Assembly (NCBI RefSeq): GCF_026870155.1
Contig: NZ_CP113975.1
Span: forward strand, 4,278,001-4,342,000
DNA length: 64,000 bases
Reading direction: 5' to 3'
Source: Flavobacterium marginilacus
GTDB lineage: Bacteria; Bacteroidota; Bacteroidia; Flavobacteriales; Flavobacteriaceae
Shown here: positions 4,060 through 20,606 of the stretch, in pieces
How positions within the stretch are numbered: position 1 is the first letter of the stretch
Layout: the number at the start of each line of letters is the position of its first letter
Notes under the pieces: model-generated
What the model was told of the DNA's origin: nothing
Databases searched by the model: none
The model's input: only the letters and a program-made list of their open reading frames with translations
Translations under genes and position numbers: made by a program

Positions 4060-4188
4060 AATTTTTTATGTTTTATGATTATGAGGCAAATGTCAGCATG
4101 AAACAGGAATTCTAAAAATCAATTTATTAATAAAACTGACGATATAAAAATGTATTTTATTATTTTTATACTAAAAAAAACCATCCGT

Positions 4189-5709
4189 ATGAATGCACTT
4201 CAGGAAATAGTAAATATGATGAATGAAAACGAAAAAAAGGCATTCATACAATATCTTTCAAAAAAGAACAAACGTAAAGACACAAGCAATACAGCATTAT
4301 TTAATTCTTTAAAAACTGACGATATAAATTATAAAATAAATACTTTAGAAAACAAAAAAAGTACCGATGCCTATCATGCTCTCAGAAAAAGACTTTATGA
4401 CAGCATGATTGATTTCATGGCCAATCGAAGTTTTGAGAATGACACCTCACAAGAAAATGCAGTACTTCGTCTTATTGTTGTAAGCCGTTTATTTTTTGAA
4501 CACAAATTGATAAAAACAGCCTTTAAATGTCTTGCAAAGGCCGAAGATATTGCATTGAGCATTGAACATTTTGGTCTTCTCAATGAAATCTATCAGACTC
4601 AGATACAATTTGCACATTTCAACCTATCAGAACCAATCGAAAAAATAATTGAGAAGTTTAAAGCCAATAAAAAACAACTCGAATATGAAGAACAGCTCAA
4701 TTTAGGCTATGCTGTTTTACGCCGTGAACTTGCCGCTATTCATCACGAAGGCCGGATTGTAGATTTTCAGTCTCTTATAAAAAACACCATTGAAACACAT
4801 GGAATATCATTAAAACAGGGACTGACTTTTAAATCGCTGTATCAAATATTATTTATCGCCAACGAATATGCTTCCCTAAACAGTAATTTCTCGCTTATTC
4901 AGCCTTTTGTAGTTAAAAGCTACCGTTTCATTAGTAAAAAAACGGATCTGACAGACAGACATTTATACTATCATATCTACATTTTATATTTTGTAGCCAA
5001 CTTCTATTTTCGGAATGGTCAGTTTAGAGAATCTTTGGACTATCTTGATTTGATGTCTGCCGAACTTCAAAAACAATCTGGTAAATATTATCAGCGGTTC
5101 TGCCTTCGGTATTTTTTATTATTGGCTTTCAATGAAAATTATCTTGGTCATTGGCAAAAAGCAATTGAAATTGCCGAAAAAGCGCTTTCTTCAAATAAAA
5201 AAACAGATCCTAATGACAGTAACGACATCCGTCTGATGCTGATCGTTTTTTATATACAGCAAAATACAGGACGCAATGCCGTAAAAGAAATGGCAAAATT
5301 AAACCATACCGACAGCTGGTACGAAAAAAAAATGGGAATGGACTGGACGATAAAAAAGTGTCTTGTCGAAATCATTCTGCATGTCCAGCAGGAGAACACC
5401 GAACTGACTTTATCCCGAATAAAAAGTTTTAAACGGCGTTATAAAAAATACCTTTTAACGGTAAATGAAGAACGTGTTGTACACTATCTTTTATTTATTG
5501 AGCAATATGTACTGAAACCCGAAATTATAAAAACACAAAAATTCCAAATAGAAATAGAAGATTTTATAGTTTCGGCACAAAACGGCCCAAAAGATATTTT
5601 TATCATGAGCTTCTTATCCTGGCTGCTTGCAAAAGTGAGACGAAAAACGACTTATGAAACTACGTTAAATCTACTGACAGCCTACTTCCCTGTTACAAAT
5701 TTCATATAA
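4189..5709 (+). CDS. Helical-repeat (TPR-like) protein, unknown function
   Basis: About 506 residues, cytoplasmic, almost entirely alpha-helical. Alternating hydrophobic and charged helices resemble degenerate TPR repeats (for example around KTAFKCLAKAEDIALSIEH and the region GQFRESLDYLDLM). I chose the ATG at 4189 (MNALQEIVNMMNENEKKAF). An in-frame ATG at 4150 would add 13 mostly hydrophobic residues encoded in a probable leader, which is less natural for this N-terminus. No catalytic motif or membrane segment is seen. It stands alone, divergent from the YiaA-like gene. A scaffolding or regulatory role typical of TPR proteins is only a guess. Confidence 0.7.
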   Translation: MNALQEIVNMMNENEKKAFIQYLSKKNKRKDTSNTALFNSLKTDDINYKINTLENKKSTDAYHALRKRLYDSMIDFMANRSFENDTSQENAVLRLIVVSRLFFEHKLIKTAFKCLAKAEDIALSIEHFGLLNEIYQTQIQFAHFNLSEPIEKIIEKFKANKKQLEYEEQLNLGYAVLRRELAAIHHEGRIVDFQSLIKNTIETHGISLKQGLTFKSLYQILFIANEYASLNSNFSLIQPFVVKSYRFISKKTDLTDRHLYYHIYILYFVANFYFRNGQFRESLDYLDLMSAELQKQSGKYYQRFCLRYFLLLAFNENYLGHWQKAIEIAEKALSSNKKTDPNDSNDIRLMLIVFYIQQNTGRNAVKEMAKLNHTDSWYEKKMGMDWTIKKCLVEIILHVQQENTELTLSRIKSFKRRYKKYLLTVNEERVVHYLLFIEQYVLKPEIIKTQKFQIEIEDFIVSAQNGPKDIFIMSFLSWLLAKVRRKTTYETTLNLLTAYFPVTNFI

Positions 5710-6001
5710 ATACTGATCTTAAATAGATTTTAAGAACAAACACATTATGTCTTTTGAACTTTAGAACATCTGCAGCAGCTTTTCATTGGAACATTTTAGA
5801 AAACTAACTTTAGTTTTCATTCAGCACACAAAAAAATTTATAAATCAACTTATTTTTAAATATATCTTTCTACTATTTACAAATATAAAAAAGCCAAACT
5901 GCTATTTAAAAAATTTATTTATTTCTGTAATAAAATTAGTTATACATTAGCAATAAAAACACTGAGATCCAACTTAAACTAAAGAAGAAAACGCATAAAA
6001 G
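5710..6001. other. AT-rich intergenic region upstream of dioxygenase operon
   Basis: 292 bp of very AT-rich DNA with long A and T tracts. It must contain the promoter of the operon starting at 6002. TATCTTTC at 5863-5870 loosely resembles a -7 box, but no convincing -33 partner was found. No ORF or strong hairpin is visible. Confidence 0.4.
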
Positions 6002-7231
6002 ATGATGACATTACCCAGCGAAAACAAAATTTCTAAAGACAAAAATATTCTCATTGTTTTAGGTAAAAACACAAACACAACTTTAGAGCTTAGCTACCTG
6101 ATAGAAAAATTCTGTGGAATTGTAGTAAATGATTTTTCTAAAATTAAAACTTCGTTAGCTGACAAAATGATTTACGTCTGCGGAGATATTAATCAACTTA
6201 AAAACAATAAACATAACTTATATGTAATCGAAGAACTGTCAATAAATCACGAAAATTACAAAGGTGATAATCTGCATTTTATAACATTAGGAGAAGTTCC
6301 GCTTCTTATCAGCAATGCTGGAATCTATTACCGAAATATGTTTGGCGACAATGATTATTTTAATACAATTAAATCTGAACATTTATTTCAGGAACTGACA
6401 GAATCGAACAAAGAATCTAAGGCTCTAAGAAAAGGCATTTATTTAACTGAAATTGTAAAAGAAAATACAAATAATTCAGAATTGCTTCATTTTCGCCTTT
6501 TGAGATGTTCAAGCAATTTTACCGGACCAACAGACAATTTTAGAAAAACTGATCAAATTATCCTAAACATTTTAAATAATGCTATCAAATATACTTTTGA
6601 AAAAGAAACAAAAGTTAATCATGTTCTAGCTCAAATTTATGAGAATAAAATAAAGAGCAATGACAGCGCAAAAGAAGTAAAATCTAAAATAAAAGCACAT
6701 TCTGACAAAACAAAAGATATGTCTAAAGATGGTATTATTGCTTTTTGCACTTTCTATGACAAATCCAATTTTGACCAGCTGACACAATCAAAAGAGGATA
6801 GGTACGATTGGTTTTATAAGAAAGCAAGCGGACTGACAAAACTTCATTTTAAATTAAAGAATACCGTAACTGATCCAGCTTTAGAAAAGGAATTCAATGT
6901 TACTTTGTATCCAAATTCAGCTTTTTTAATACCTCTTTCTACAAATAGATTATACACTCACGAAATTAAGCCTTCTGTTCTAAATGTAGATCAAATTCCA
7001 ATTAGAATGGGTTATGTTGCCCGCTGTTCAAATTTAGAAGCCGTTTACATAAATGACCAAACCTATATCAAGGAAAATAATAGGTTTATTAAACTTGAAC
7101 CAATGACTTCAGATACAATGATTGACCTAAGAAATTCATATTACGAAGAAAATATCAGTGAAAAGAAAATAGAATACGGTAAAATTCATTTTAGCATGAA
7201 TTCTGGTGATTACGAAAAACCAATATTTTAA
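6002..7231 (+). CDS. AlkB-like 2OG-Fe(II) dioxygenase with extra N-terminal domain
   Basis: 409 residues. I assign the second half to the 2-oxoglutarate/Fe(II) dioxygenase fold, AlkB-like, from motif order. The metal ligands would be H233 and D235 (KAHSDKTKDM) and the distal H320 (LYTHEIKPS). Arg335 (QIPIRMGYVAR) or Arg341 would bind 2OG. The helix before the HxD motif (VNHVLAQIYENK) corresponds to the AlkB strand preceding its HxD. Residues 15-110 look like a separate alpha/beta domain (KNILIVLGKN, MIYVCGDINQ) that I cannot name. No signal peptide, so presumably cytoplasmic. It is the first gene of a tight operon with another AlkB-like protein and an endonuclease V-like nuclease, which favours a nucleic-acid substrate. 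The DNA is markedly AT-rich (25% G+C at 6421-6480). Call by motif only; homology search would decide. Confidence 0.6.
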   Translation: MMTLPSENKISKDKNILIVLGKNTNTTLELSYLIEKFCGIVVNDFSKIKTSLADKMIYVCGDINQLKNNKHNLYVIEELSINHENYKGDNLHFITLGEVPLLISNAGIYYRNMFGDNDYFNTIKSEHLFQELTESNKESKALRKGIYLTEIVKENTNNSELLHFRLLRCSSNFTGPTDNFRKTDQIILNILNNAIKYTFEKETKVNHVLAQIYENKIKSNDSAKEVKSKIKAHSDKTKDMSKDGIIAFCTFYDKSNFDQLTQSKEDRYDWFYKKASGLTKLHFKLKNTVTDPALEKEFNVTLYPNSAFLIPLSTNRLYTHEIKPSVLNVDQIPIRMGYVARCSNLEAVYINDQTYIKENNRFIKLEPMTSDTMIDLRNSYYEENISEKKIEYGKIHFSMNSGDYEKPIF

Positions 7232-7245
7232 TCTGACAATAAGTA

Positions 7246-8040
7246 ATGAACAACTTAGGCTTTTATAAAATCACACTCCCTCTTGAAAACTTATTCGAAG
7301 AATTATCAAATTCCATAACTTTTGAAAATATCACTAAAGGGAGAATCGGAAATAATTTAGTTAATATATCTGATCAAAATATTCCAATCACAAGAACAAC
7401 CAGTATTTACAATATTCCGCCTCATGATTTTTCTCCTGTACATCATCAAATTATAGCGTCTTTAAATACTGAAATTCAAAACAATCCTATTGAAAATTTA
7501 CAATCGGCAGATTTTAATAATGCACTTATAGAAATCTACGACTGTAATTATTCTAAAATGAATTATCATTCTGATCAATCTTTAGATTTGGAAACTGGCT
7601 CTTTTATTGGTTTATTTTCATGCTATGAAAATCCTGACAATTTAATAGAAAAGAACATACGTAAACTAAAAATTAAAGACAAAGTCAGTAATGAAGAATA
7701 CGAAATCCCGCTGACACATAATTCTATTATCCTATTTTCATTGGAAACTAATAAAAAGTTTCTTCATAAAATTATATTAGAATCTGCTTTAAGCAAAAAG
7801 AAACTTGAATTTGATAATAAATGGCTTGGAATTACTTTTAGAAAATCAAAAACATTTATACATTTCAAAGATAATTTACCGTATTTCTCCAATGGAGAAT
7901 TGTTAACATTGGCTGATGAAAATCAAAAAAAGGAATTTTATACTTTAAGAGGACAGGAAAACAACAATTTAAATTTTATTTACCCGATATTATCATACAC
8001 ATTAAGTATAGGAGATACAATGGAACCAATAGAATCATGA
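7246..8040 (+). CDS. AlkB-like 2OG-Fe(II) dioxygenase
   Basis: 264 residues with a clear AlkB-type motif series. The strand ALIEIYDCNYSKMNYHSDQS carries H108 and D110 of the HxD iron motif. LTHNSIILFSLE is the strand before the distal histidine H174 (KKFLHKI), and WLGITFRKSK ends the core with Arg199, the usual 2OG ligand. PITRTTSIYNI at about 47-57 resembles the substrate-lid region of AlkB-type enzymes. The expected reaction is oxidative demethylation or hydroxylation using 2OG, O2 and Fe(II). Starts 14 bp after the first dioxygenase gene, and its stop overlaps the next start (ATGA). It is diverged from its neighbour, so the pair may form a heterodimer or act on different lesions; this is inference. 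Substrate unknown. Confidence 0.7.
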   Translation: MNNLGFYKITLPLENLFEELSNSITFENITKGRIGNNLVNISDQNIPITRTTSIYNIPPHDFSPVHHQIIASLNTEIQNNPIENLQSADFNNALIEIYDCNYSKMNYHSDQSLDLETGSFIGLFSCYENPDNLIEKNIRKLKIKDKVSNEEYEIPLTHNSIILFSLETNKKFLHKIILESALSKKKLEFDNKWLGITFRKSKTFIHFKDNLPYFSNGELLTLADENQKKEFYTLRGQENNNLNFIYPILSYTLSIGDTMEPIES

Positions 8041-10065: not shown

Positions 10066-10905
10066 CTAAACTCGAAAAAAATTAGCTTCAATCCAGCGTT
10101 TTTTCCAACTGCTCCATATTTCTTCAAATACCTCATCATTTTCTTTGTACTGAGTTTTAAACCGTTCTTTTGCAACAGCAATATCACCTTGCTCTTTTAA
10201 AATACTTAAAAAATCATACTGTTCTTTGTGCAGATCATAAATTGCCAATTTAAATTTATGGCGCAAAACCACACAATAACTTTCGCTTTCAAATGGTAAA
10301 TTGGGTTCCTTTCCATTTTTAAACTCGGAATAGTATTTTTGTACTGGAAACTGGAATTTGAATAAGCTGCATATAGGTACTAATTTTAGTTCCTTTTCTG
10401 CAATATTAATCGCCGCTAATTGATAATTTTCTTCCGCTTTCATTTCAAAAAGAACACCAATAGCATATTCAAATTGAGCCAGTTCAATCATAAAATCTAT
10501 CCAATCTTCTTTCAGTTCGTCTTGGGCATCAGGTCTATTATTTTGCAGATACTCCGAAAAATGAGCCCCTAAAAAAGATAAGTTGTAATTATACGATGGT
10601 TTTGAAGCAAGATAATCATCAGCAAAAGCGCAAAAAATAGCCTCCCCCAAGGCATATTCTAATGCGCTAAATTGCTGTGACATACAATTTCGCAAACGCG
10701 CAATATAACTCCGCTGGTAAATACCCAAATGTTCTTGCGCGGTCAATTTTTCAGAATGACAAATCACATCTTCAATTGATGCTGCATTTGATGCATTGGA
10801 AAGCAAATCATTAGGATTGACAGCTGTCTGCTGGTAAGGATCCAGTAAAAGCTGCTGCATCCATTGCTGAAAATCCTTCAATGGTATGGTAGGCGTTTTG
10901 TGCAT
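10066..10905 (-). CDS. DUF2063-type partner protein of MNIO enzyme
   Basis: About 280 residues. The N-terminal part (LKDFQQWMQQLLLDP, then EHLGIYQRSYIARLRNCMSQQFSALEYALGEAIFCAFADDYL) is the putative DNA-binding/DUF2063 domain typically encoded next to DUF692 enzymes. In characterised systems this protein is the partner that recognises the precursor or supports the iron enzyme. I chose the ATG at 10905; a GTG at 10914 is three codons upstream. It begins about 10 bp after the stop of the DUF692 gene and is the last gene of the minus-strand cluster. It is probably cytoplasmic, and a direct complex with the upstream enzyme is expected. Confidence 0.8.
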   Translation of the reverse strand: MHKTPTIPLKDFQQWMQQLLLDPYQQTAVNPNDLLSNASNAASIEDVICHSEKLTAQEHLGIYQRSYIARLRNCMSQQFSALEYALGEAIFCAFADDYLASKPSYNYNLSFLGAHFSEYLQNNRPDAQDELKEDWIDFMIELAQFEYAIGVLFEMKAEENYQLAAINIAEKELKLVPICSLFKFQFPVQKYYSEFKNGKEPNLPFESESYCVVLRHKFKLAIYDLHKEQYDFLSILKEQGDIAVAKERFKTQYKENDEVFEEIWSSWKKRWIEANFFRV

Positions 10906-10914
10906 CTTAAACAC

Positions 10915-11829
10915 TTATATAAATTGATTTATCGCAACAATATTCAATGGATTTGAAATTTGCTCATTATCAATAGATTGAATTTCATTTTCAGTTCCAG
11001 CAAATGCTTTATCCATATATTTTTTTGATTTAAGCAACTCGGAATGATACACATCAAAGGCTGGAATATTACCATCCCACTCCAATAAAACGGAAGCTTC
11101 GCTTACCAATTGATATGCCATCTGAAACAATTTCCATACTGGATTGGTCACTTCCCTATCATGTGTATCAATGATATAATTGCCGCAGTTCTGATGACCC
11201 GCCAAGTGCATCTGCACTACTTTATCATGCGGAATTCCATTGATATATTCCACTGGGTCAAAATCATTATTAAAAGAAGACACATACACATTGTTTACAT
11301 CCAGCAGTAATCCGCAACCTGTTTCATCGGTCATTAATCGCAAAAACTCCCATTCTGGAAGTGTAGAATTATTAAAGGATGCATACGTACTTGGGTTTTC
11401 CAAAATCAATGGACGTTCCAGATAATCCTGAACCTGCCTGATTCGATCACAAACATGTTTTAATGACTCGTCATTTAGCGGAAGCGGTAATAAATCATGC
11501 GAATTGGTTGTTAAAACTCCTGTCCAGCACAGATGATCGCTAATCCAAGCCGGTTTTACTTCGGCTGCCAGCTGTTTTAAACCTTTTAGGTAATCAAAGT
11601 TCAGCGGATCGGTACTTCCTATAGACAGCGATACCCCGTGCATTACCACGGGATACTGTTCTGCTATCTGATGTAAAATATATCTAGGCCGTCCATGCGA
11701 ATCCATAAAATTTTCAGAAATTACCTCAAACCAATCTACTCCGGGTTTATTCTGAAGTATATGCTCAAAATGCTGACTTCTTAAACCTAATCCTAATCCT
11801 AAATTAGGCAATCCAAGTCTAGTTATCAT
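10915..11829 (-). CDS. DUF692 multinuclear iron oxidative enzyme (MNIO)
   Basis: 304 residues, TIM-barrel enzyme of the DUF692/MNIO family, which uses two or three iron ions to modify cysteines or backbone of ribosomal peptides. Family signatures are present in order: WFEVISENFM (33-42), VMHGVSLSIGS with His64, ISDHLCW with Asp98/His99, LENPSTY with Glu144, LLLDVNNVYVS with Asp177, QMHLAGH with His208 and His212, DTHDREV with Asp221/His223, and LLEWDGNIP with Glu250. All candidate metal ligands are intact, so it should be active. The start overlaps the stop of the Cys-rich gene by 4 bp, and the DUF2063 partner follows directly. The arrangement points to the Cys-rich protein as substrate. Confidence 0.9.
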   Translation of the reverse strand: MITRLGLPNLGLGLGLRSQHFEHILQNKPGVDWFEVISENFMDSHGRPRYILHQIAEQYPVVMHGVSLSIGSTDPLNFDYLKGLKQLAAEVKPAWISDHLCWTGVLTTNSHDLLPLPLNDESLKHVCDRIRQVQDYLERPLILENPSTYASFNNSTLPEWEFLRLMTDETGCGLLLDVNNVYVSSFNNDFDPVEYINGIPHDKVVQMHLAGHQNCGNYIIDTHDREVTNPVWKLFQMAYQLVSEASVLLEWDGNIPAFDVYHSELLKSKKYMDKAFAGTENEIQSIDNEQISNPLNIVAINQFI

Positions 11830-12404
11830 TTTTTCGAACAGCAGTTTGAAATAGTCTCAGGCAGTTTTTTTGCACTTTCTTCCTTCATCTTCAAAACCCT
11901 TAAGTCGGCAGCCGCCTTTCTATCCACAGGATTGTTTATGTAGGAACAAGACCTTGAACCGCTTTGTCCGCAGGAAGAATAATCTTTACCTGTAGTCCCG
12001 CGAACCATATTTACATATTCATCGCTTGGACCATACTGTTGTGGCGCTGCGCCAAATGATTCACCGTTTTCTGTTCTTTTTTCTTCAAAACGCGCTCTTG
12101 CCAATTGCCAGACACTAAGTCCTTTATTAGGCCCTTGTGCCAAAAAACGAGAAGACAGAATAGGCACTCCGCAGCTTCCCTGATAACGGCATTCATTTTC
12201 GCCTGGATGACAAAGTTCCTCGGTAGTTCCAAAGATTCCACAGCCTCCCTGTCCCTTGCAGGCATTCAAGGTATGACAGGGATGACCAACTGCTGTTGAA
12301 CAATCTCCTTTTCCAGCACAATCATTATTGCCTGAATATCCCGCATTTTTACATGAATTAAGCCCCATGCATACATGAAGCTCTCTATTTACTAATTCTG
12401 ACAT
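11826..12404 (-). CDS. Cys-rich protein, candidate MNIO substrate
   Basis: 192 residues with 14 cysteines, 10 of them in the first 80 residues (12, 18, 29, 35, 43, 49, 55, 65, 72, 78). Five pairs are spaced C-x5-C (12/18, 29/35, 43/49, 49/55, 72/78), including HTLNACKGQGGCG. The second half (about 85-180) is hydrophilic with C145 and C153, and the protein ends NCCSKK. No signal peptide or membrane helix is seen, so it is cytoplasmic as made. It is translationally coupled to the DUF692 enzyme (4-bp overlap), as expected for a modified substrate. It is longer than typical RiPP precursors. The alternative is a metal-binding protein without modification. Confidence 0.7.
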   Translation of the reverse strand: MSELVNRELHVCMGLNSCKNAGYSGNNDCAGKGDCSTAVGHPCHTLNACKGQGGCGIFGTTEELCHPGENECRYQGSCGVPILSSRFLAQGPNKGLSVWQLARARFEEKRTENGESFGAAPQQYGPSDEYVNMVRGTTGKDYSSCGQSGSRSCSYINNPVDRKAAADLRVLKMKEESAKKLPETISNCCSKK

Positions 12405-12420
12405 CTTTTTTATTTTTTGA

Positions 12421-13935
12421 TTAATGATTATGTTTATATGGTGTGCTTGGTACCTTTGGCATATCGGCTATAATACTGTGATCCAGCCCTACGTCTGGCA
12501 GTGAAGGAAAATAATTTTCACTCTTAATTGCCCAGCCCCAATTAACAGGATCAGCTTTAGCCAATTGATCGACCAAATTCATAATCTGCTCTTTTGGTCT
12601 TAAAAAACTATTTACAAAAGAATAAGGTTCAAATGTTAAAGCTCCTCTGTAAGCGCTATTTCCTTTGGAATAAGTATAATAATTTATCTGATTTCCTACA
12701 CCGCTCAACAGCCAGATCATCGATTTATGAATGCCATACAGGAACAAATCATATTGAGTGCTTTCGTCTTTATAATAACAGGTTTCAATCATTAAAAGAA
12801 TATAAGCAAAAACCGCATTACCCAATTCTGAACAAAGTGCCAGAGCCTCATTACCCGATGCTCTATAATCGGCTATTGTCGGATTGGCATCAGTGTCGTA
12901 CACGAAATAGCTGAAAAAATCGTCCAAGCCCTGAATTTTACTAAACTTTTCCTGATAATGACCTCCAAGGCTATACGCTTCGAGGAATTTGGCAAAATGT
13001 GCCACTTCTTTTCCGGTATCATCATAATCGCCTTCCCAAAACGTAACCTTTCCATCCACGACTTCCATTGGTACCGGCATTTTATTTTCTCCCCAAATCA
13101 GAGTATGCTGTTTCTCCTTGCTTCGTCCTTCTCCTTGTTCTACAATTCGTTCCAAAGCCTCAACTGCCGAATGAGCATCATACACCCCAACCAGTTCGCC
13201 GCTATCATTGCCATTAGCAAATTTAGGATTGTGCTCTCTGTCATAATGCACAGTATTCATCGAGTTTTGAGAATAAAACGGCTTAGGACGTGCCGGATTA
13301 TCAGGTGGAAGCAATTGTGGTCTATAATTATACGGACCAGGGAAATTCTCTTTTACGCACTCAATAATCATCTCATACAAACGGCCAATAGTTTGATAAT
13401 CAACCGTGTTTAACAATTGTTTTTCTGCATATGGATCTACAAATGGTTCAGGGCTTTCTATCTGCAAAAAAGTAGTCAGCTGATTCAGCGATAATTTTGC
13501 AGCGTTAATTTGAAATTCAGGAATATGTCCATCTAATTGTGTTGGAAATGACAGTACTTTTCCGATTCCCATAAGATCCGGCTCTGTTTGACAAACTGCT
13601 TGTTTCACATTACAGGAAAGAGCCAGGTGCAGCATTTCTTCGATAACCACACTCATAATTAAAGCAGCTGATTTATTCGAATATACCAATACATCCAGTT
13701 TCAGATCTTGCGCCAATGCTTCAATTTCTGCTTCAGTACGTTCACCAGACTGCGATAGCTGCGCATGGAGTTTAGCGTATAGCTTATCTTGATCCTGCGC
13801 TCTGTTTATTGAATAATAGGTCGACAGATACGTTGGAATAGTAGCAAGCTCCAGTGCAATTGCCTGCTGCATTACCTCTTTGATATTATCTTTTGTTACC
13901 TCATTTGAAAATGTAAAAAGTTTTTTGGTTTTCAT
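12421..13935 (-). CDS. Ferritin-like protein, VioB-type (PF12902-like)
   Basis: 504 residues. The N-terminal half is a ferritin-like four-helix region: VMQQAIALELATIPTYLSTYYS at about 20-41 and VVIEEMLHLALSCNV around 95-109. These are the E...ExxH-type metal-binding helices seen in the ferritin-like domain of iminophenyl-pyruvate dimer synthase (VioB/RebD group). In those pathways the enzyme couples two imines made by an FAD amino-acid oxidase. An FAD amino-acid oxidase gene lies immediately upstream here, which supports an analogous pair. It is about half the length of VioB, so only part of that architecture is present. 16 bp separate it from the Cys-rich gene. The exact reaction is not predictable. 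Confidence 0.7.
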   Translation of the reverse strand: MKTKKLFTFSNEVTKDNIKEVMQQAIALELATIPTYLSTYYSINRAQDQDKLYAKLHAQLSQSGERTEAEIEALAQDLKLDVLVYSNKSAALIMSVVIEEMLHLALSCNVKQAVCQTEPDLMGIGKVLSFPTQLDGHIPEFQINAAKLSLNQLTTFLQIESPEPFVDPYAEKQLLNTVDYQTIGRLYEMIIECVKENFPGPYNYRPQLLPPDNPARPKPFYSQNSMNTVHYDREHNPKFANGNDSGELVGVYDAHSAVEALERIVEQGEGRSKEKQHTLIWGENKMPVPMEVVDGKVTFWEGDYDDTGKEVAHFAKFLEAYSLGGHYQEKFSKIQGLDDFFSYFVYDTDANPTIADYRASGNEALALCSELGNAVFAYILLMIETCYYKDESTQYDLFLYGIHKSMIWLLSGVGNQINYYTYSKGNSAYRGALTFEPYSFVNSFLRPKEQIMNLVDQLAKADPVNWGWAIKSENYFPSLPDVGLDHSIIADMPKVPSTPYKHNH

Positions 13936-13960
13936 GTTTTTAGAAATTTGAAAGCATTAT

Positions 13961-13992
13961 AACATTTGTATAAGCAAAGTGACACAAATGTT
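13961..13992. promoter_or_regulatory. Inverted repeat upstream of ferritin-like gene
   Basis: Perfect 9-bp arms AACATTTGT (13961-13969) and ACAAATGTT (13984-13992) with a 14-nt spacer. They lie in the 83-bp gap between the amino-acid oxidase stop and the ferritin-like start, the widest gap in this cluster. It could be an operator, an mRNA hairpin or part of an internal promoter. Confidence 0.5.
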
Positions 13993-14018
13993 AATCTGCC
14001 TTATTTAGTTAGAGTGAA

Positions 14019-16016
14019 TTATTCTGGAGAGATAAAAGGATAATACTTTTCATCTATGATTGGTTCGATACCAAAAAAATCATTAAGAACAGATTCGGCA
14101 GTACAAAATGCCCCTTCTACCCAAGCCTGATCATTTGAATACGTTTCGCCAACTATAAAAATATCGCAATCCGTTTTTGGAACGAGCTGTGACGGTTTTC
14201 TAATTTTTCTTTGCACGTCACCTAAATCATAGTGTGATTTATAAGCATGATACCCTGCATTAAAAGGAGGCAGCGACCAGTCCATGTATTTTGTTTCCAA
14301 AGGTTCAGGCACAAAAGAATAATCAGCCTGTGGTCCAAAATGCAGTGCTGCCAATTGTGAACGGAGCATTTTGACCATTACTGGCGTGGCTTTTCTTGGT
14401 CCTTCGAGCGGCTGGCAATCTCTGGACTCCGGAATTTCACGTGTTCCATTTGGCCCAAGCTCTAAAGCTTTCCAGAATGTTGTATACTGAATATCATCAT
14501 AACTGGCCAGAATACCATACACTTTTTCCCCCTTTTTATTTATGGCGTTATCACCAAAATAAACCACCTGCCGGATAGGCATATCGGTAATGCTTGGACC
14601 AATAGTATCTAATTCGGCTACAGCTGCAATCTGCTTTTCTTCTTTAAAAGTCAGGCGTTCCTGAATTGCATTTTCTACAGCAGCTATAAAACTGATCTTA
14701 TCGTTAAATGATGCACCTATAATAACCGGATTTTTTGCTGATTCTATTGCTTTCAAATAATTAGAAGGAAATTTTTCTTTTTTAAGTTTGGCAATTCCTT
14801 CCTGTGTTAGGAAATAACTGGTTAGTTTGGCAGGATACGTTGGACTTCCAGCCTCGGTTGTTCTCCACCAAGGAGTAGTAAAAAACATTCCTATTTTGTA
14901 CGAAGGTTCCATAATTACAGATTCCAGATAGAGCTGTACTTTTTCGTGGTTCAAGACATCCTGACCTTCATCATCTGTATAACGCGTTGCCTCAGCTACC
15001 AGTTCAATAGCCGCACGAGGCATTGCAAGAAATGCAGCATTGCATATTTTACTTTCGGCAAGTTTATCAGGAGCTGCGCGTTTTGCGGTGGTAAAACGAA
15101 TCCCAGCCTTAGTATGCAGAATTGAACGTAATCTGGTATCTGGAAAATAATTCAGTGTAATTCCTTTTTGTTTTGCCAGTTTTTCAACTTCTTCGAATAA
15201 AGCATCAAATAAACTGGAGTATCCTTTTACCAGCGTTTTATATTCAGTTCCAGGAGTAAATTCGTCATTAACATTAAAGGACTGGGCACTATGGCTGTTT
15301 ACTACGTTTGAACTATAGCCGTTACCATCCGCCAGATAGCCAAATCCTTCTTGTCCAAGTCTGTCATAAGCGAGATTCCAATACCCTATATCTTTTAGTA
15401 AATCTCCTTTTTGAAAGATTGAACTTTCCGGCATATCAATATTGATTCTTCCTTCTGCATAAAACCGGCACCACTCTCTTCTGGTTACAGGCCCGGATTC
15501 TTGCGTAATAGCTACAGATTGTATCGTTGTAAATCCATCATCCGGCGGAGCGTCTTCACCATAATTGTTTGCAAAATAAGGCGCTGGCTGATTAGAATTA
15601 ATGTCTGAGACATACATATTTTTAGAACGCAGAGACATTAATGGATCCGCAGATTCATTAAACTCAATGGAATCTTTCTTTAAATCAAGTTTCTCTATAG
15701 TTTTGGTAACTACACGATGTCCAGCCCCTTCAGGACTTCCGTCCCAATAAGAATATCGCATACCGCCCAATTCCAGATACGAATTGTCTTTATTGTCCTT
15801 GTAATGCCATGTACAGACACGTGCGCCTGGCTCTCTCGTACCTGGATTTTTTTTGGAAAAATCATATTTCCCCCAGTCGTAGAGTTCCAACACATCACCT
15901 TTGACAAGCATTTTTTCGTTTTTATCATGTTTGGATTTCCCTTCCAGTAATCTCCAGGCAGTATAGAGCCCAGCTGCACCCGCTCCAAAAATAGAGTATG
16001 TTTTCTTATTAGTCAT
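14019..16016 (-). CDS. FAD-dependent L-amino-acid oxidase-like protein
   Basis: 665 residues of the flavin amine oxidase superfamily. The N-terminal dinucleotide-binding motif is IFGAGAAGLYTAWRLLEG (about 9-26). YLELGGMRYSYW follows, corresponding to the GGMR substrate/flavin motif of L-amino-acid oxidases. The C-terminal FAD motif is IFIVGETYSNDQAWVEGAF at about 622-640. No Tat or Sec signal, so cytoplasmic. It probably oxidises an amino acid to the imino acid with H2O2 release. Its position just before a VioB-like gene recalls the VioA-VioB and RebO-RebD pairs of bisindole pathways. A ThDP decarboxylase gene ends 26 bp upstream. The substrate, tryptophan or another residue, is not determinable here. 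Confidence 0.85.
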   Translation of the reverse strand: MTNKKTYSIFGAGAAGLYTAWRLLEGKSKHDKNEKMLVKGDVLELYDWGKYDFSKKNPGTREPGARVCTWHYKDNKDNSYLELGGMRYSYWDGSPEGAGHRVVTKTIEKLDLKKDSIEFNESADPLMSLRSKNMYVSDINSNQPAPYFANNYGEDAPPDDGFTTIQSVAITQESGPVTRREWCRFYAEGRINIDMPESSIFQKGDLLKDIGYWNLAYDRLGQEGFGYLADGNGYSSNVVNSHSAQSFNVNDEFTPGTEYKTLVKGYSSLFDALFEEVEKLAKQKGITLNYFPDTRLRSILHTKAGIRFTTAKRAAPDKLAESKICNAAFLAMPRAAIELVAEATRYTDDEGQDVLNHEKVQLYLESVIMEPSYKIGMFFTTPWWRTTEAGSPTYPAKLTSYFLTQEGIAKLKKEKFPSNYLKAIESAKNPVIIGASFNDKISFIAAVENAIQERLTFKEEKQIAAVAELDTIGPSITDMPIRQVVYFGDNAINKKGEKVYGILASYDDIQYTTFWKALELGPNGTREIPESRDCQPLEGPRKATPVMVKMLRSQLAALHFGPQADYSFVPEPLETKYMDWSLPPFNAGYHAYKSHYDLGDVQRKIRKPSQLVPKTDCDIFIVGETYSNDQAWVEGAFCTAESVLNDFFGIEPIIDEKYYPFISPE

Positions 16017-16042
16017 GATTGTATATTTTTTTGTTTTTTTGT

Positions 16043-17761
16043 TTATTCGTTACCCAATCTTGACATTTGCTGTGCCAGATCTTTTTGAGGAATTACAATT
16101 TCTACCAAACTTGGAAGATTCGTTTTTTTCTTGAGTTCAAGAAGTACTTCGTTTAACTCTGTTACGGTTTCGGCTCGGTAACTGTTTGCGCCAAATGCTT
16201 TGGCAAGTGCCTGATAATCCCATTTTGGAAGGATATCAAATTCATCAAACTTATGTTCTGGTCCCGCCTTAAACGAGTCCATGTCTACATATACCTGCTC
16301 AATAGCATATACCCCGTTACTCATGACAAATATCACAGAGTTGATATTGTATCTTACAAGAGTCGAAAGTGACTGTGCAATCATCATAAAACCGCCATCT
16401 CCGGCTACAGTCCAAGCCTGCTTGCCGCTTCCAAGCTGAGCACCCGAAGCTGCACCAGTTTCAAAACCAATACACTGCCACGCTGCCGAAGAAATAAAAG
16501 CATTTTTTGATAATCCGTAAATATTGGTAGCCACATACATAGATGAGCTTACGCCAAAAGTCATGACAATGTCTTCAAGCATTTTGTTCTTTTCCAAGAA
16601 AGAAACCGTATTTTCAAAAAAGCGATTGAATGTTATTACTTCGGGGGTGTTATCATATTTAGGATCCGAATTAGATTTCCAAGGCTCTGGAAATTTTGGC
16701 TGAGGTGGTGCCACCGATTTTAAAGGATATTCTGCCGCTTTTTTAAAACGTTTTATTAATGCTTCAATAAAATCTTTTAAGGTTACATCATTATACGTAA
16801 AATAACCAACACGCATTTCTTCTGTGGTTGCCTGAATCATATCCGAAAACTTATTTTCTACCAGCCACAAATAATCATCTGTAATAATCGTCCCTAAAGA
16901 CAGGATACAATCAGAAGCTTCGACCAGTTTTATCACTTCGGGTATAGATGCCTGATCTGAATAGGTTCCAATAAATTTATCTCCCTCCTCATCCAGAACC
17001 GTTTTTCCCAGTGAAGTAGTAGTGTACAGTATACCGCTATATTTGATAAATTCTTCCAGCTGACTGGACAAATTGTGCCGCAAAATCTCTACGCCTGCAA
17101 AAATCAAAGGCGATTTTGCCTCAGTAATTTGAGTCCAGGCTTGAGAAACAGCATTCTCAAGTGCCGCCGCTTCACTTTTGATTATCTGAGGCTTTAATTT
17201 TTTATCTGAAGGCTTTGGGCAAGGCTCACCCCACACCTCTTTATAACATGCAATGTATACAGGACGCTGGTGCGTAAGTGCAGTAATGATTAATTTATCG
17301 ATTTTTTCTGGAGCATCTACAGAACTGCTCAAGGTCTCGGCAGCAACAGTTACTCTTTCGTAAATTTCCTGATCCGCGTTGAGATTACCCGTAGAATGAT
17401 GATAAAGCACATTGTACATACTCCCGATCTGGCGTGCATCTGCTCCGGGAGTGGCACTAATTACCACAACAGGACTGCGCTCTACATAAGCTCCTGCAAT
17501 AGCATTTAATGCGCTGTAAGTACTTACCCCATACTGCAGGGATACAGCAGCCAGCCCGCGGGTACGTGCATAAGCATCTGCAGCATAAGAAGCGTCTAAT
17601 TCATTGGAAGTTCCAATGGTTTTGATTCCATCAAAATTTTCCAGGGCTTGTGTAAAGTGCTTGACATAATCACCTGGTATTTGAAAAATTTCGGTAACAT
17701 TTAATTGCTTGAGCCGAGTGAGCAGATAATCTGCAACTGTAAATTCTTTTGTAGATTTCAT
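16043..17761 (-). CDS. ThDP-dependent 2-oxoacid decarboxylase (PDC/IPDC family)
   Basis: About 572 residues. Start chosen at the ATG giving MKSTKEFTVADYLLTRL; in-frame ATG and GTG lie at 17785 and 17788. Family hallmarks are the catalytic Glu in TSNELDASYAADAYAR (about residue 54), the His-His pair in LYHHSTG (about 121-122), the GDGGFMM ThDP motif, and SNGVYAIEQ, whose Glu matches the second catalytic glutamate of pyruvate decarboxylase. It should decarboxylate a 2-oxo acid to an aldehyde. An amino-acid oxidase in the same operon would supply the 2-oxo acid (for example indolepyruvate or phenylpyruvate), which makes the pair a plausible two-step module. Substrate specificity is inferred only. 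Confidence 0.85.
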   Translation of the reverse strand: MKSTKEFTVADYLLTRLKQLNVTEIFQIPGDYVKHFTQALENFDGIKTIGTSNELDASYAADAYARTRGLAAVSLQYGVSTYSALNAIAGAYVERSPVVVISATPGADARQIGSMYNVLYHHSTGNLNADQEIYERVTVAAETLSSSVDAPEKIDKLIITALTHQRPVYIACYKEVWGEPCPKPSDKKLKPQIIKSEAAALENAVSQAWTQITEAKSPLIFAGVEILRHNLSSQLEEFIKYSGILYTTTSLGKTVLDEEGDKFIGTYSDQASIPEVIKLVEASDCILSLGTIITDDYLWLVENKFSDMIQATTEEMRVGYFTYNDVTLKDFIEALIKRFKKAAEYPLKSVAPPQPKFPEPWKSNSDPKYDNTPEVITFNRFFENTVSFLEKNKMLEDIVMTFGVSSSMYVATNIYGLSKNAFISSAAWQCIGFETGAASGAQLGSGKQAWTVAGDGGFMMIAQSLSTLVRYNINSVIFVMSNGVYAIEQVYVDMDSFKAGPEHKFDEFDILPKWDYQALAKAFGANSYRAETVTELNEVLLELKKKTNLPSLVEIVIPQKDLAQQMSRLGNE

Positions 17762-17799
17762 TATTTGATTTTCTAAATTAAGCATCACATTTGTTCTTC

Positions 17800-19152
17800 T
17801 TACACTTTTATACGCACCTGTAAACTTCCAATATTGTCAGTCAATCCAGCTCCGTATTCTCCATTTAAATCATCGTTGATGCATAATTTTAAGGCTCCGC
17901 TTTCCCCTGCGGGAGTTGTAACGGGACCGTTTCCAATATAGAAAGGAGCATTAGACCCAACTTGTCCTATAAGAGATCCCATATTTACATTTTGAATTGG
18001 ATAACCTGACTGGGTCACGATAATACCAGGGCATCCATCTGCTCCATACAAATTGCCGCCATTTGTTTCTGGATCTGCAGTCCATTGACCAGAACTGTAA
18101 CTTACTGTTACCTGACTTCCTGGCTGTACGGTAACTCCTGTTTCCTGCCATGGCTGTTTTGCATTCACTTGAGTAAACGTTTCTACCAGCTGTAAGGTGT
18201 TTGCATCAATATGTAAAAATTGGGTCGGTAAACCATTTATTAAAAACTGTAAAACAATATTTTGAATGTACTGCAGCTGCACTTTTCCATTACTCAAAGT
18301 TTCAACATACCAAGTAGTGTCCATCGAAATCACTTTCCCAAAGGAATTTTCAAAATTTATATTACTTACCGCACCGCCTTCATTGGTAGTACTAACCGTA
18401 ATGCTTGAGTAACTCTCGACAGTAATACCTTTACTATTCAATCCTTTTAATTGCTGTGTCAAATAAGTTGATGGATCAATTATAGAAGAATCCGTAAAAG
18501 GTAATTTAGTTCTATCGGCTATTGGAAAAACCGGATTTCCTGTTCCAGATACAACCGGTCCTCCCGTCATCAAAACGGAAACACCATGAGGCACCGAAAT
18601 TTGTTTGTTATATTGAGTTGCTGGATTTTGTACTGGAATTGGATTTGTGACAGGAACAGTCCCTGGTCCATAAGGTCCTTCCATTTGATTTTGTATAGCA
18701 TGATAAAGCCAAGTCCCATTTTCAGCATGAATCAAGGTGTTCTCAATTGGCTGTGATCCGCTTGGATCGGCGTTGTCTGCTATGTATACTCTTTGTTCAT
18801 AAAACAGTACACCGCTGGACTGTGTAAACTGCCCTTCCCTGTTTGGCGCTCCGCCGGCTATTGCCGAAAATGAAATTTCTTCAAAATAAGGAAAATTTTT
18901 AGTGATGTAGCCATTTGGAGCATCTGTCTGAGGCAAAGGCATAACATTGTAACCTGCAGCATCAGCTCCAGTCGGGCTGTTCCAAGTACCAATAAAATTA
19001 TTTAAAAGTCCCAGATTTGAAGTACCAATGACTGGCGGCTGATTTGTTGCTGATACAAGCGGCGTTGTAATGTCTGGAATTATCGCTGTTGCTGATGCTT
19101 GTTCAGCAAGATAAGGGCATTTTTGTTTTTCTAAGCTGATTGAATTTTCCAT
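17800..19152 (-). CDS. Beta-barrel-like domain fused to LecA-like lectin domain
   Basis: 450 residues. After a hydrophilic N-terminus, LLNNFIGTWNSP (about 49-60) starts a region with the GTW signature of nitrobindin/lipocalin-like heme-binding barrels, running to about residue 320. From about 335 to the end there is a domain like the PA-IL/LecA galactose lectin: VQPGSQVTVSYSSGQW, then GSLIGQVG, then LKLCINDDLNGEYGAGLTDN. The latter matches the LecA calcium/sugar loop NDxxGxYGxN. No signal peptide is seen. It is the first gene of the minus-strand cluster, 38 bp before the ThDP enzyme. It could bind heme or sugar, or hold a pathway intermediate; both domain calls are by eye. Confidence 0.55.
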   Translation of the reverse strand: MENSISLEKQKCPYLAEQASATAIIPDITTPLVSATNQPPVIGTSNLGLLNNFIGTWNSPTGADAAGYNVMPLPQTDAPNGYITKNFPYFEEISFSAIAGGAPNREGQFTQSSGVLFYEQRVYIADNADPSGSQPIENTLIHAENGTWLYHAIQNQMEGPYGPGTVPVTNPIPVQNPATQYNKQISVPHGVSVLMTGGPVVSGTGNPVFPIADRTKLPFTDSSIIDPSTYLTQQLKGLNSKGITVESYSSITVSTTNEGGAVSNINFENSFGKVISMDTTWYVETLSNGKVQLQYIQNIVLQFLINGLPTQFLHIDANTLQLVETFTQVNAKQPWQETGVTVQPGSQVTVSYSSGQWTADPETNGGNLYGADGCPGIIVTQSGYPIQNVNMGSLIGQVGSNAPFYIGNGPVTTPAGESGALKLCINDDLNGEYGAGLTDNIGSLQVRIKV

Positions 19153-19586: not shown

Positions 19587-20606
19587 ATGAAAACAAAAAT
19601 TACTATTAACGACATTGCAAAAGAATTAGGCATCGCTCCGGCGACCGTCTCTCGTGCATTAAGCAATCATCCGGAAATAAGCGCATCCACCAAGAAAAAA
19701 GTTAAAGCTGCTGCAGAACGCCTTGACTACAGACCTAATAAAATTGCTTCTTCATTGCGTTCGGGAAAAACAAAAATTATTGGAGTACTAATTCCAACTG
19801 CTGAACATTTATTTTTCGGATCAGTAATTCATGGCATTTCAAATTTAGCCAGCCAGCACGGTTATGATGTTCTTATTTATCAGTCCAACGAAAACGAAGA
19901 GTTTGAAAAAAAAGGAATTGATACATTTATTGGAGCAAGAGTTGATGGGATTTTAGTTTCAATTTCTAAAAACACAACCGATTTTTCACACTTCGAATCG
20001 GTCAAAAAGAAAAATATTCCAATTGCTTTTTTTGACCGTACCAATGATGATCTAGAAATTTCGTCCGTCTGCACTGATGATTATATGGGAGCCTTCATGG
20101 CAACTGAATCCCTTATAAAATCAGGATATCAAAGAATTGCTCATATTTCGGGCCCACAGCAAATTAAAGCTTTCACAGAAAGAATCCGAGGCTATAAAGC
20201 AGCTTTAAATGAGTACAATATTAATTTTGACCAAAATCTGATTTACAGCGGAGACATCAGTATTGAAGCCGGGAGAAAAGGCGTGCAGTATTTTTTAGAA
20301 TTAGAAAAAAAACCAGATGCCGTTTTTGCCACAGAAGATTTTACGGCGCTTGGTGCTTTAAAGGAATTAAAAGAACGAGAAATTAATGTGCCTAATCAAT
20401 TTGGAGTAATGGGTTTCTGCAATGATTTATTCAGTGAACATATTACGCCTTCCCTTTCGACTGTAGACCAAAAAACTGTCCAGATGGGCGAAGAAGCATT
20501 CAATCTCATCTATGAATTAATTTCAAAGAAAGGAGAAAAAATAAACCTGCAAAGACGAATACTAACACCAGCTTTAATTCTAAGGCAATCATCAAATAAG
20601 AACTAA
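19587..20606 (+). CDS. LacI/GalR-family transcriptional regulator
   Basis: 339 residues. The N-terminal LacI helix-turn-helix is TINDIAKELGIAPATVSRAL (about 4-23), followed by hinge RPNKIASSLRSGKTKIIGVLIP. The rest is the periplasmic-binding-protein-like effector domain (FFGSVIHGISNLASQHGYDVLIYQ; DGILVSISKN; AHISGPQ; PDAVFATEDFTALGALKEL). It probably represses the downstream aldo/keto reductase and GH2 genes and itself, releasing DNA on binding a sugar. Palindromic operators of the same sequence lie on its own promoter and 13 bp before the next gene. The effector sugar is unknown; a GH2 product such as galactose is a reasonable guess. Confidence 0.92.
   Translation: MKTKITINDIAKELGIAPATVSRALSNHPEISASTKKKVKAAAERLDYRPNKIASSLRSGKTKIIGVLIPTAEHLFFGSVIHGISNLASQHGYDVLIYQSNENEEFEKKGIDTFIGARVDGILVSISKNTTDFSHFESVKKKNIPIAFFDRTNDDLEISSVCTDDYMGAFMATESLIKSGYQRIAHISGPQQIKAFTERIRGYKAALNEYNINFDQNLIYSGDISIEAGRKGVQYFLELEKKPDAVFATEDFTALGALKELKEREINVPNQFGVMGFCNDLFSEHITPSLSTVDQKTVQMGEEAFNLIYELISKKGEKINLQRRILTPALILRQSSNKN

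Follow-up and report, generated by a model that had tools for sequence, protein, structure and literature searches.

A bufferin-type MNIO and its DUF2063 partner recur with a cysteine-rich protein encoded beside, or fused to, a ferritin-like PF12902 protein

The closest described relatives of the system considered here are the MNIO (DUF692) pathways treated in the cited portions of two articles (PMC13097082, PMC12452194). In these pathways, an MNIO and its DUF2063 partner act on a Cys-rich substrate, whose cysteines are oxidised to copper-binding 5-thiooxazoles; an absorbance band near 305 nm is reported for thiooxazole products in PMC13097082. The characterised products described in those portions are peptides, often secreted and metal-binding. 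Substrates without a signal peptide are reported together with PME-type 2 partners in the cited part of PMC12452194. One published group of unnamed function, adjamnio-I, is listed in Table 2 of that article with precursors of 122–293 aa that contain 8–21 Cys, have no signal peptide and are encoded upstream of the MNIO.

The window analysed here is a stretch of 64 000 nucleotides (C1:4278001–4342000) from the 5.32-Mb genome of Flavobacterium marginilacus. Its minus strand carries seven co-directional ORFs, running from 19152 to 10066. In order of transcription they encode an FMP-type heme-binding protein (450 aa, 17800–19152), a ThDP-dependent 2-oxo acid decarboxylase (581 aa, 16043–17788; the start may be the ATG at 17761), an FAD-dependent L-amino-acid oxidase (665 aa, 14019–16016), a ferritin-like PF12902 protein previously labelled 'VioB-like' (504 aa, 12421–13935), a Cys-rich, probably cytosolic candidate MNIO substrate that we call CysR (192 aa, 11826–12404), an MNIO of the bufferin-maturase type (304 aa, 10915–11829) and a DUF2063 partner (282 aa, 10066–10914; the start may be the ATG at 10905). 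The intergenic gaps are 11, 26, 83, 16, −4 and 0 bases; these positions confirm the first-pass annotation in its account of seven same-strand genes with short gaps, and the 4-base overlap that it noted between the CysR and MNIO genes is real. The gene at 17800–19152, which was missing from the title of that annotation, is the one for the heme-binding protein. The seven genes are two separable blocks: a four-gene unit (ferritin-like protein, CysR, MNIO and DUF2063 partner) and an oxidase–ThDP decarboxylase pair, often with the heme protein. The 83-base gap between the blocks (13936–14018, minus strand) can form a hairpin (RNA fold, −16.9 kcal/mol); the corresponding gap is ∼20 bases in most Flavobacterium relatives. 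Promoter and terminator scans gave no excess over shuffled sequences (38 versus 31.3 and 8 versus 7.6, respectively), and a PHROGs search with three proteins returned no match.

The cluster shares several features with the bufferin (Buf2/BufA2) and captophorin systems: a BufB-level MNIO, a bona fide DUF2063 protein, the order precursor–MNIO–partner, and repeated C-x5-C cysteines with Cys-Lys motifs, which are found in CysR. The MNIO, assigned to the iron-dependent MbnB/TglH/ChrH family, matches PF05114 at 359.2 bits (cut-off 25) and is the only such match in the whole genome. It also exceeds the BufB cut-off (NF050167, 356.7 bits versus 310), as do 3/3 other MNIOs from module or fusion loci. 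The DUF2063 partner scores 52.9 bits against PF09836 (cut-off 27.2), which places it in PME-type 1, and lies below the HvfC-type cut-off (NF050145, 47.6 bits versus 142). PF09836 is over its cut-off in all 10 other partners scanned, which come from eight of nine non-Flavobacterium split loci and two of three fusion loci. The earlier proposal of an MNIO/DUF2063 set with a Cys-rich candidate substrate is supported.

The differences lie mainly in the substrate. Unlike its bufferin and captophorin counterparts, CysR has no signal peptide, falls below the BufA2 cut-off and has a ferritin-like enzyme encoded just ahead of it or on the same chain. In a screen based on hydropathy only, 0/43 CysR sequences had a 12-aa window over 1.6 within the first 50 aa, and the BufA2 cut-off (NF050166, 60 bits) was missed by the CysR of the window (21.3 bits) and by two relatives (20.7 and 19.8 bits). 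Eleven cysteines are conserved in ≥98% of 43 relatives. The protein as a whole is conserved from end to end, its C-terminal half is ordered, and a Foldseek search of the PDB with the CysR model found nothing. The MNIO differs as well: the residue after the inferred catalytic Asp is Gly, Ser, Ala or Asn in 17/17 sequences but acidic in the one bufferin-type control. CysR is like the adjamnio-I precursors in the features listed in Table 2, and the two groups may overlap. According to the cited portion of PMC12452194, however, adjamnio-I occurs with PME-type 2 partners, whereas the partner in our cluster is over the PF09836 cut-off, a comparison made by description only. Because CysR lacks a signal peptide by hydropathy and goes with a bona fide DUF2063 protein, it breaks the correlation between signal-peptide-less substrates and PME-type 2 partners reported there.

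The ferritin-like protein matches PF12902 at 115.3 bits (cut-off 22.3), and residues E29, E100, H103, E160, E269 and H313 are invariant in 54 relatives. PF12902 is the only domain found in its 504 aa, with no match in NCBIfam, a collection that may hold no VioB model. We take the PDB entry 3hl1 and the VioB/RebD domain to be PF12902 ferritin-like as well. Relatives are named iminophenyl-pyruvate dimer synthase in UniRef; these names copy the domain name. In contrast to PF12902 proteins of the VioB/RebD type, the protein of the cluster is tied to a Cys domain of the MNIO-modified type, and no heme-type VioB partner domain was found in it.

A search with the oxidase yielded 45 loci, 23 of them from Flavobacterium; 'no module' at an oxidase locus refers to the fetched stretch. 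All four unit genes lie directly downstream of the oxidase, in the order of the window, at 15/45 loci, which argues that the arrangement is more than chance. All 15 belong to the 23 loci of Flavobacterium, with the heme protein upstream in 12. At one of the 15, L044, the MNIO matches fall in two frames. Outside Flavobacterium, the four-gene order of the window is kept at 9/9 loci with a separate CysR (L058, L059, L060 and L066–L071). Two of the nine, from a single genus (L060 and L068), have a divergent oxidase and ThDP enzyme upstream in reversed order, and at two others (L058 and L071) a relative of the heme protein neighbours the unit.

The CysR protein is rare. Among 395 genomes of the Bacteroidota phylum, 11 were matched, 7 of them convincingly; the four weak matches (E 3.4e-5 to 9.2e-4) were left out of the CysR counts. 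One of these, L061, resembles a bufferin gene and adjoins an MNIO, and the other three (L055–L057) are without any cluster relative nearby. Further searches that found CysR matched 3/150, 2/148, 2/151 and 3/299 genomes, counts that include our own and already known genomes and, in the last case, one fusion. A search with the ferritin-like protein matched 4/295 genomes. Among the 120 CysR relatives listed, 48 have a longest contig equal in size to that of one of the 120 ferritin-like relatives listed (41/71 for contigs of at least 5 kb), while jittered sizes give a mean of 0.4 and a maximum of 4.

The two proteins also occur as natural fusions. In Aureivirga sp. CE67 (L072), a 766-aa ORF combines PF12902 in its N-terminal part with a CysR-like segment in its C-terminal part and is followed by MNIO and DUF2063 genes, and the MNIO and DUF2063 genes are next at all three fusion loci inspected (L072; L075, from P. 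piscicida; and L078). Homology is supported by profile comparison for both parts of the fusion, the tail with CysR (97.7, E 1.9e-12) and the N-terminus with the ferritin-like protein (99.0, E 8.7e-18). When residues 550–700 of the L072 fusion were used alone, 450 proteins were found among 546 candidates of 421–1340 aa, and PF12902 is carried by 116 of the 120 long-protein relatives listed for the Cys-rich segment. CysR and the ferritin-like protein are a single chain in many relatives. The names of the fusion-tail relatives include Pseudoalteromonas, Shewanella, Pseudovibrio, Nostoc, Actinosynnema and others. Fusions are rare in the samples covered: the fusion profile matched 1/259 genomes of one phylum sample and 0/198 of another (a sample without a positive control). 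The fusion was present in 2 of 72,556 plasmid records, both from Pseudoalteromonas, and the fusion protein was found in 0/3 of the genomes of L036, L038 and L046. A comparison that barely covered the Cys-rich tail listed no folded relative for it. Since gene order is kept at 9/9 non-Flavobacterium loci and the natural fusions join it to a Cys-rich domain, the VioB-like protein, which the first-pass annotation had grouped with the oxidase, is part of the MNIO set.

The oxidase has no Pfam match at E ≤ 1e-3, and its assignment comes from PDB sequences, among them an FAD-dependent amino-acid oxidase (7x7i, E 1.6e-149) and an L-Lys oxidase (7eii, E 1.9e-53). None of the nine PDB sequences at E ≤ 0.01 is named VioA or RebO, although absence from this list excludes nothing. 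Among the oxidase loci, the one from Flavobacterium sp. HJJ is nearest (99–100% identical), and a plasmid search with the oxidase found nothing. The ThDP gene adjoins the oxidase at 40/45 loci by tblastn, at 39 as a clustered ORF and at one more as a fragment; such pairs are also present on Bradyrhizobium and Agrobacterium contigs. The ThDP protein has three Pfam domains of ThDP enzymes, and in the PDB it is closest to decarboxylases of 2-oxo acids, pyruvate and indolepyruvate. It fits the family of 2-oxo acid (pyruvate/indolepyruvate-type) decarboxylases, with GDY, NELxAS, HH and a Glu near NGxYxxE present in the alignments, presumably the functional decarboxylase positions, and lies below the NF equivalog cut-offs for indolepyruvate decarboxylase (254 of 946 bits). 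The linked loci fall into two separate groups in a ThDP protein tree, as read by eye from a FastTree result without support values that was rooted on L082 by choice. The heme protein scores 178.6 bits against NF040572 (cut-off 150), has no PDB sequence relatives beyond chance and occurs at 14/45 oxidase loci. L-amino-acid oxidases and 2-oxo acid decarboxylases are known enzyme families; compared with other pairs of the two, the pair of this cluster differs in the recurrent company of the MNIO unit.

How closely are the two blocks joined? The combination of the MNIO set with small-molecule enzymes, which had been proposed for the window, recurs elsewhere: 8/14 genomes with a unit or fusion have an adjacent oxidase–ThDP pair, a raw count without a background rate. 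Some of these cases are not independent, since G174 and L014, and likewise G1255 and L032, have contigs of equal length and G166/G758 and G099/G1018 share genera. The pair is linked to the unit in four genomes (G202, G174, G166 and G758) and unlinked in four (G099, G1018, G1255 and G461). It is absent from 6/14, namely G343 (remnant only), G320 (an oxidase relative without ThDP), G790, G801 and the two fusion genomes (G1104 and G1616), so that a pathway link is not obligatory. Losses of either block are also seen. At L073 (G343), a clean deletion has removed the ThDP gene and most of the oxidase, so that the heme gene's start now runs into the final portion of the oxidase gene, and the unit is intact. 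L018, in turn, retains the heme, ThDP and oxidase genes and has lost CysR and nearly all of the MNIO; its ferritin-like and DUF2063 genes persist as remnants. These reciprocal losses weaken a plain seven-gene operon with one function. The first-pass annotation had regarded separate transcription of the four upstream genes and the DUF692 set, with no co-occurrence in other genomes, as evidence against a combined cluster; the blocks are indeed separable, yet they do co-occur, linked or unlinked. The oxidase–decarboxylase pair is thus a recurrent, not an obligatory, partner of the MNIO unit.

The comparisons of sequence and gene order tip modestly in favor of a model in which the ferritin-like protein, CysR, the MNIO and the DUF2063 partner are one functional unit, a candidate system whose MNIO/DUF2063 pair modifies cysteines of a domain working within a ferritin-like metalloenzyme rather than those of a secreted metallophore; this judgement applies to the best explanation as a whole. 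In such a system, the DUF2063 protein would keep CysR in place for the MNIO to oxidise a number of its conserved cysteines, presumably in the cytosol, and the modified residue would by analogy be a 5-thiooxazole. CysR would not be released as a peptide but would work with the ferritin-like protein, its modified, metal-binding cysteines becoming part of a putative dimetal oxidoreductase. More tentatively, the site built by MNIO and DUF2063 on this integral domain, whether split or fused, could be a Cys-derived metal site and hence a protein-derived cofactor that serves an amino-acid-to-aldehyde pathway. Here the oxidase would convert an L-amino acid to a 2-oxo acid, hydrogen peroxide and ammonia, the ThDP enzyme would convert the 2-oxo acid to an aldehyde, the heme protein may consume peroxide and the ferritin-like/CysR enzyme would be the likely next step after the aldehyde.

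CysR could instead be a variant bufferin whose role is to bind surplus copper, or some other metal, in the cytosol, with the ferritin-like protein oxidising or storing metal and the oxidase block an unrelated neighbour. We regard such a buffer as rather unlikely, but it has points in its favor: the MNIO is of the bufferin type, CysR matches BufA2 weakly, the blocks can be lost separately and bufferin-type products are reported to bind copper in the cited portions of PMC12452194 and PMC13097082. In the CysR model, residues 1–55 and 70–79, the Cys-rich segment, are below pLDDT 50; with such very low confidence in this segment, a plain metal buffer fits equally. The shortfall against the BufA2 cut-off and the lack of predicted signal peptides count against it, as does the fact that the named neighbours in the cluster of the window include no DoxX, sigma factor or metal transporter. 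The fusion to a conserved domain of dimetal type is also in keeping with an enzyme.

The layout of one operon with an MNIO, a DUF2063 partner and a Cys-rich protein is the usual one for a RiPP in the part of PMC12452194 cited, and CysR might be a precursor that releases a modified core for export, with the ferritin-like protein as a second tailoring enzyme. This appears improbable given that CysR is conserved over its full length, that the fusions carry the Cys domain inside a protein of about 650–780 aa with a constant C-terminus, and that none of the seven genes is a protease or exporter gene by Pfam or NCBIfam. We give a similarly low probability to a role in peroxide defence, with the ferritin-like protein and modified CysR as a dimetal catalase or peroxidase clearing the hydrogen peroxide made by the oxidase. 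A bisindole-type pathway like VioA/VioB or RebO/RebD, suggested earlier from the co-location of an amino-acid oxidase and a PF12902 protein and echoed by the UniRef names, is not supported and is very improbable: the closest relatives of the oxidase act on L-lysine or on L-amino acids in general, and the VioB-like protein has PF12902 only and travels with the MNIO set.

Returning to the enzyme-maturation model, we found no paper that connects MNIO/DUF692 to any such ferritin-like protein in a literature collection with few subscription journals. The word 'ferritin' has no match in PMC12452194, and the one article with both terms, PMC8224329, proved unrelated, the terms standing in the title of a reference and in a table on copper. 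The natural fusions offer a ready single-chain substrate for experiment. If the model is true, a non-secreted domain of a ferritin-like enzyme would be a substrate of a bufferin-type MNIO, and MNIO chemistry would also mature enzymes; its confirmation would widen the known range of the MNIO family.

The two blocks of the cluster are separated by 83 bases (positions 13936–14018 of the window), a stretch that RNA folding predicts can form a strong hairpin (−16.9 kcal/mol). In L009–L015, loci recovered in the oxidase search, match positions indicate that the same inter-block gap spans only ~20 bases, as compared with 83 in the window. A LacI-family regulator gene (19587–20606) lies beside the cluster, divergently oriented and separated from it by 434 bases.

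In the marine oxidase–ThDP loci, a distant relative of the FMP-type heme protein and a second oxidase are located directly downstream, in the position held elsewhere by the MNIO unit; L041, also from the oxidase search, shows this arrangement at 12118–15186. Deletion scars are evident at two other loci: (i) in L018 (scar at ~12050–12490), what is left of the genes for the ferritin-like protein and the DUF2063 partner lies immediately 3′ of an intact oxidase gene and (ii) in L073 (scar at 7100–7560), the start of the heme gene is joined to the 3′ end of the oxidase gene and the MNIO unit is intact.

Near the ferritin-like/CysR-like fusion gene of L078, two similar 420-aa ORFs occur side by side (4070–6619), and by eye these look like cytochromes P450. 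The L068 locus, from outside Flavobacterium, carries genes for a DyP-like peroxidase and a 144-aa protein between its ThDP and ferritin-like genes (5699–7306). The peroxidase scores 62.4 bits against TIGR01413, under the cut-off of 100.5. These two proteins perhaps take the place of the FMP-type heme protein.
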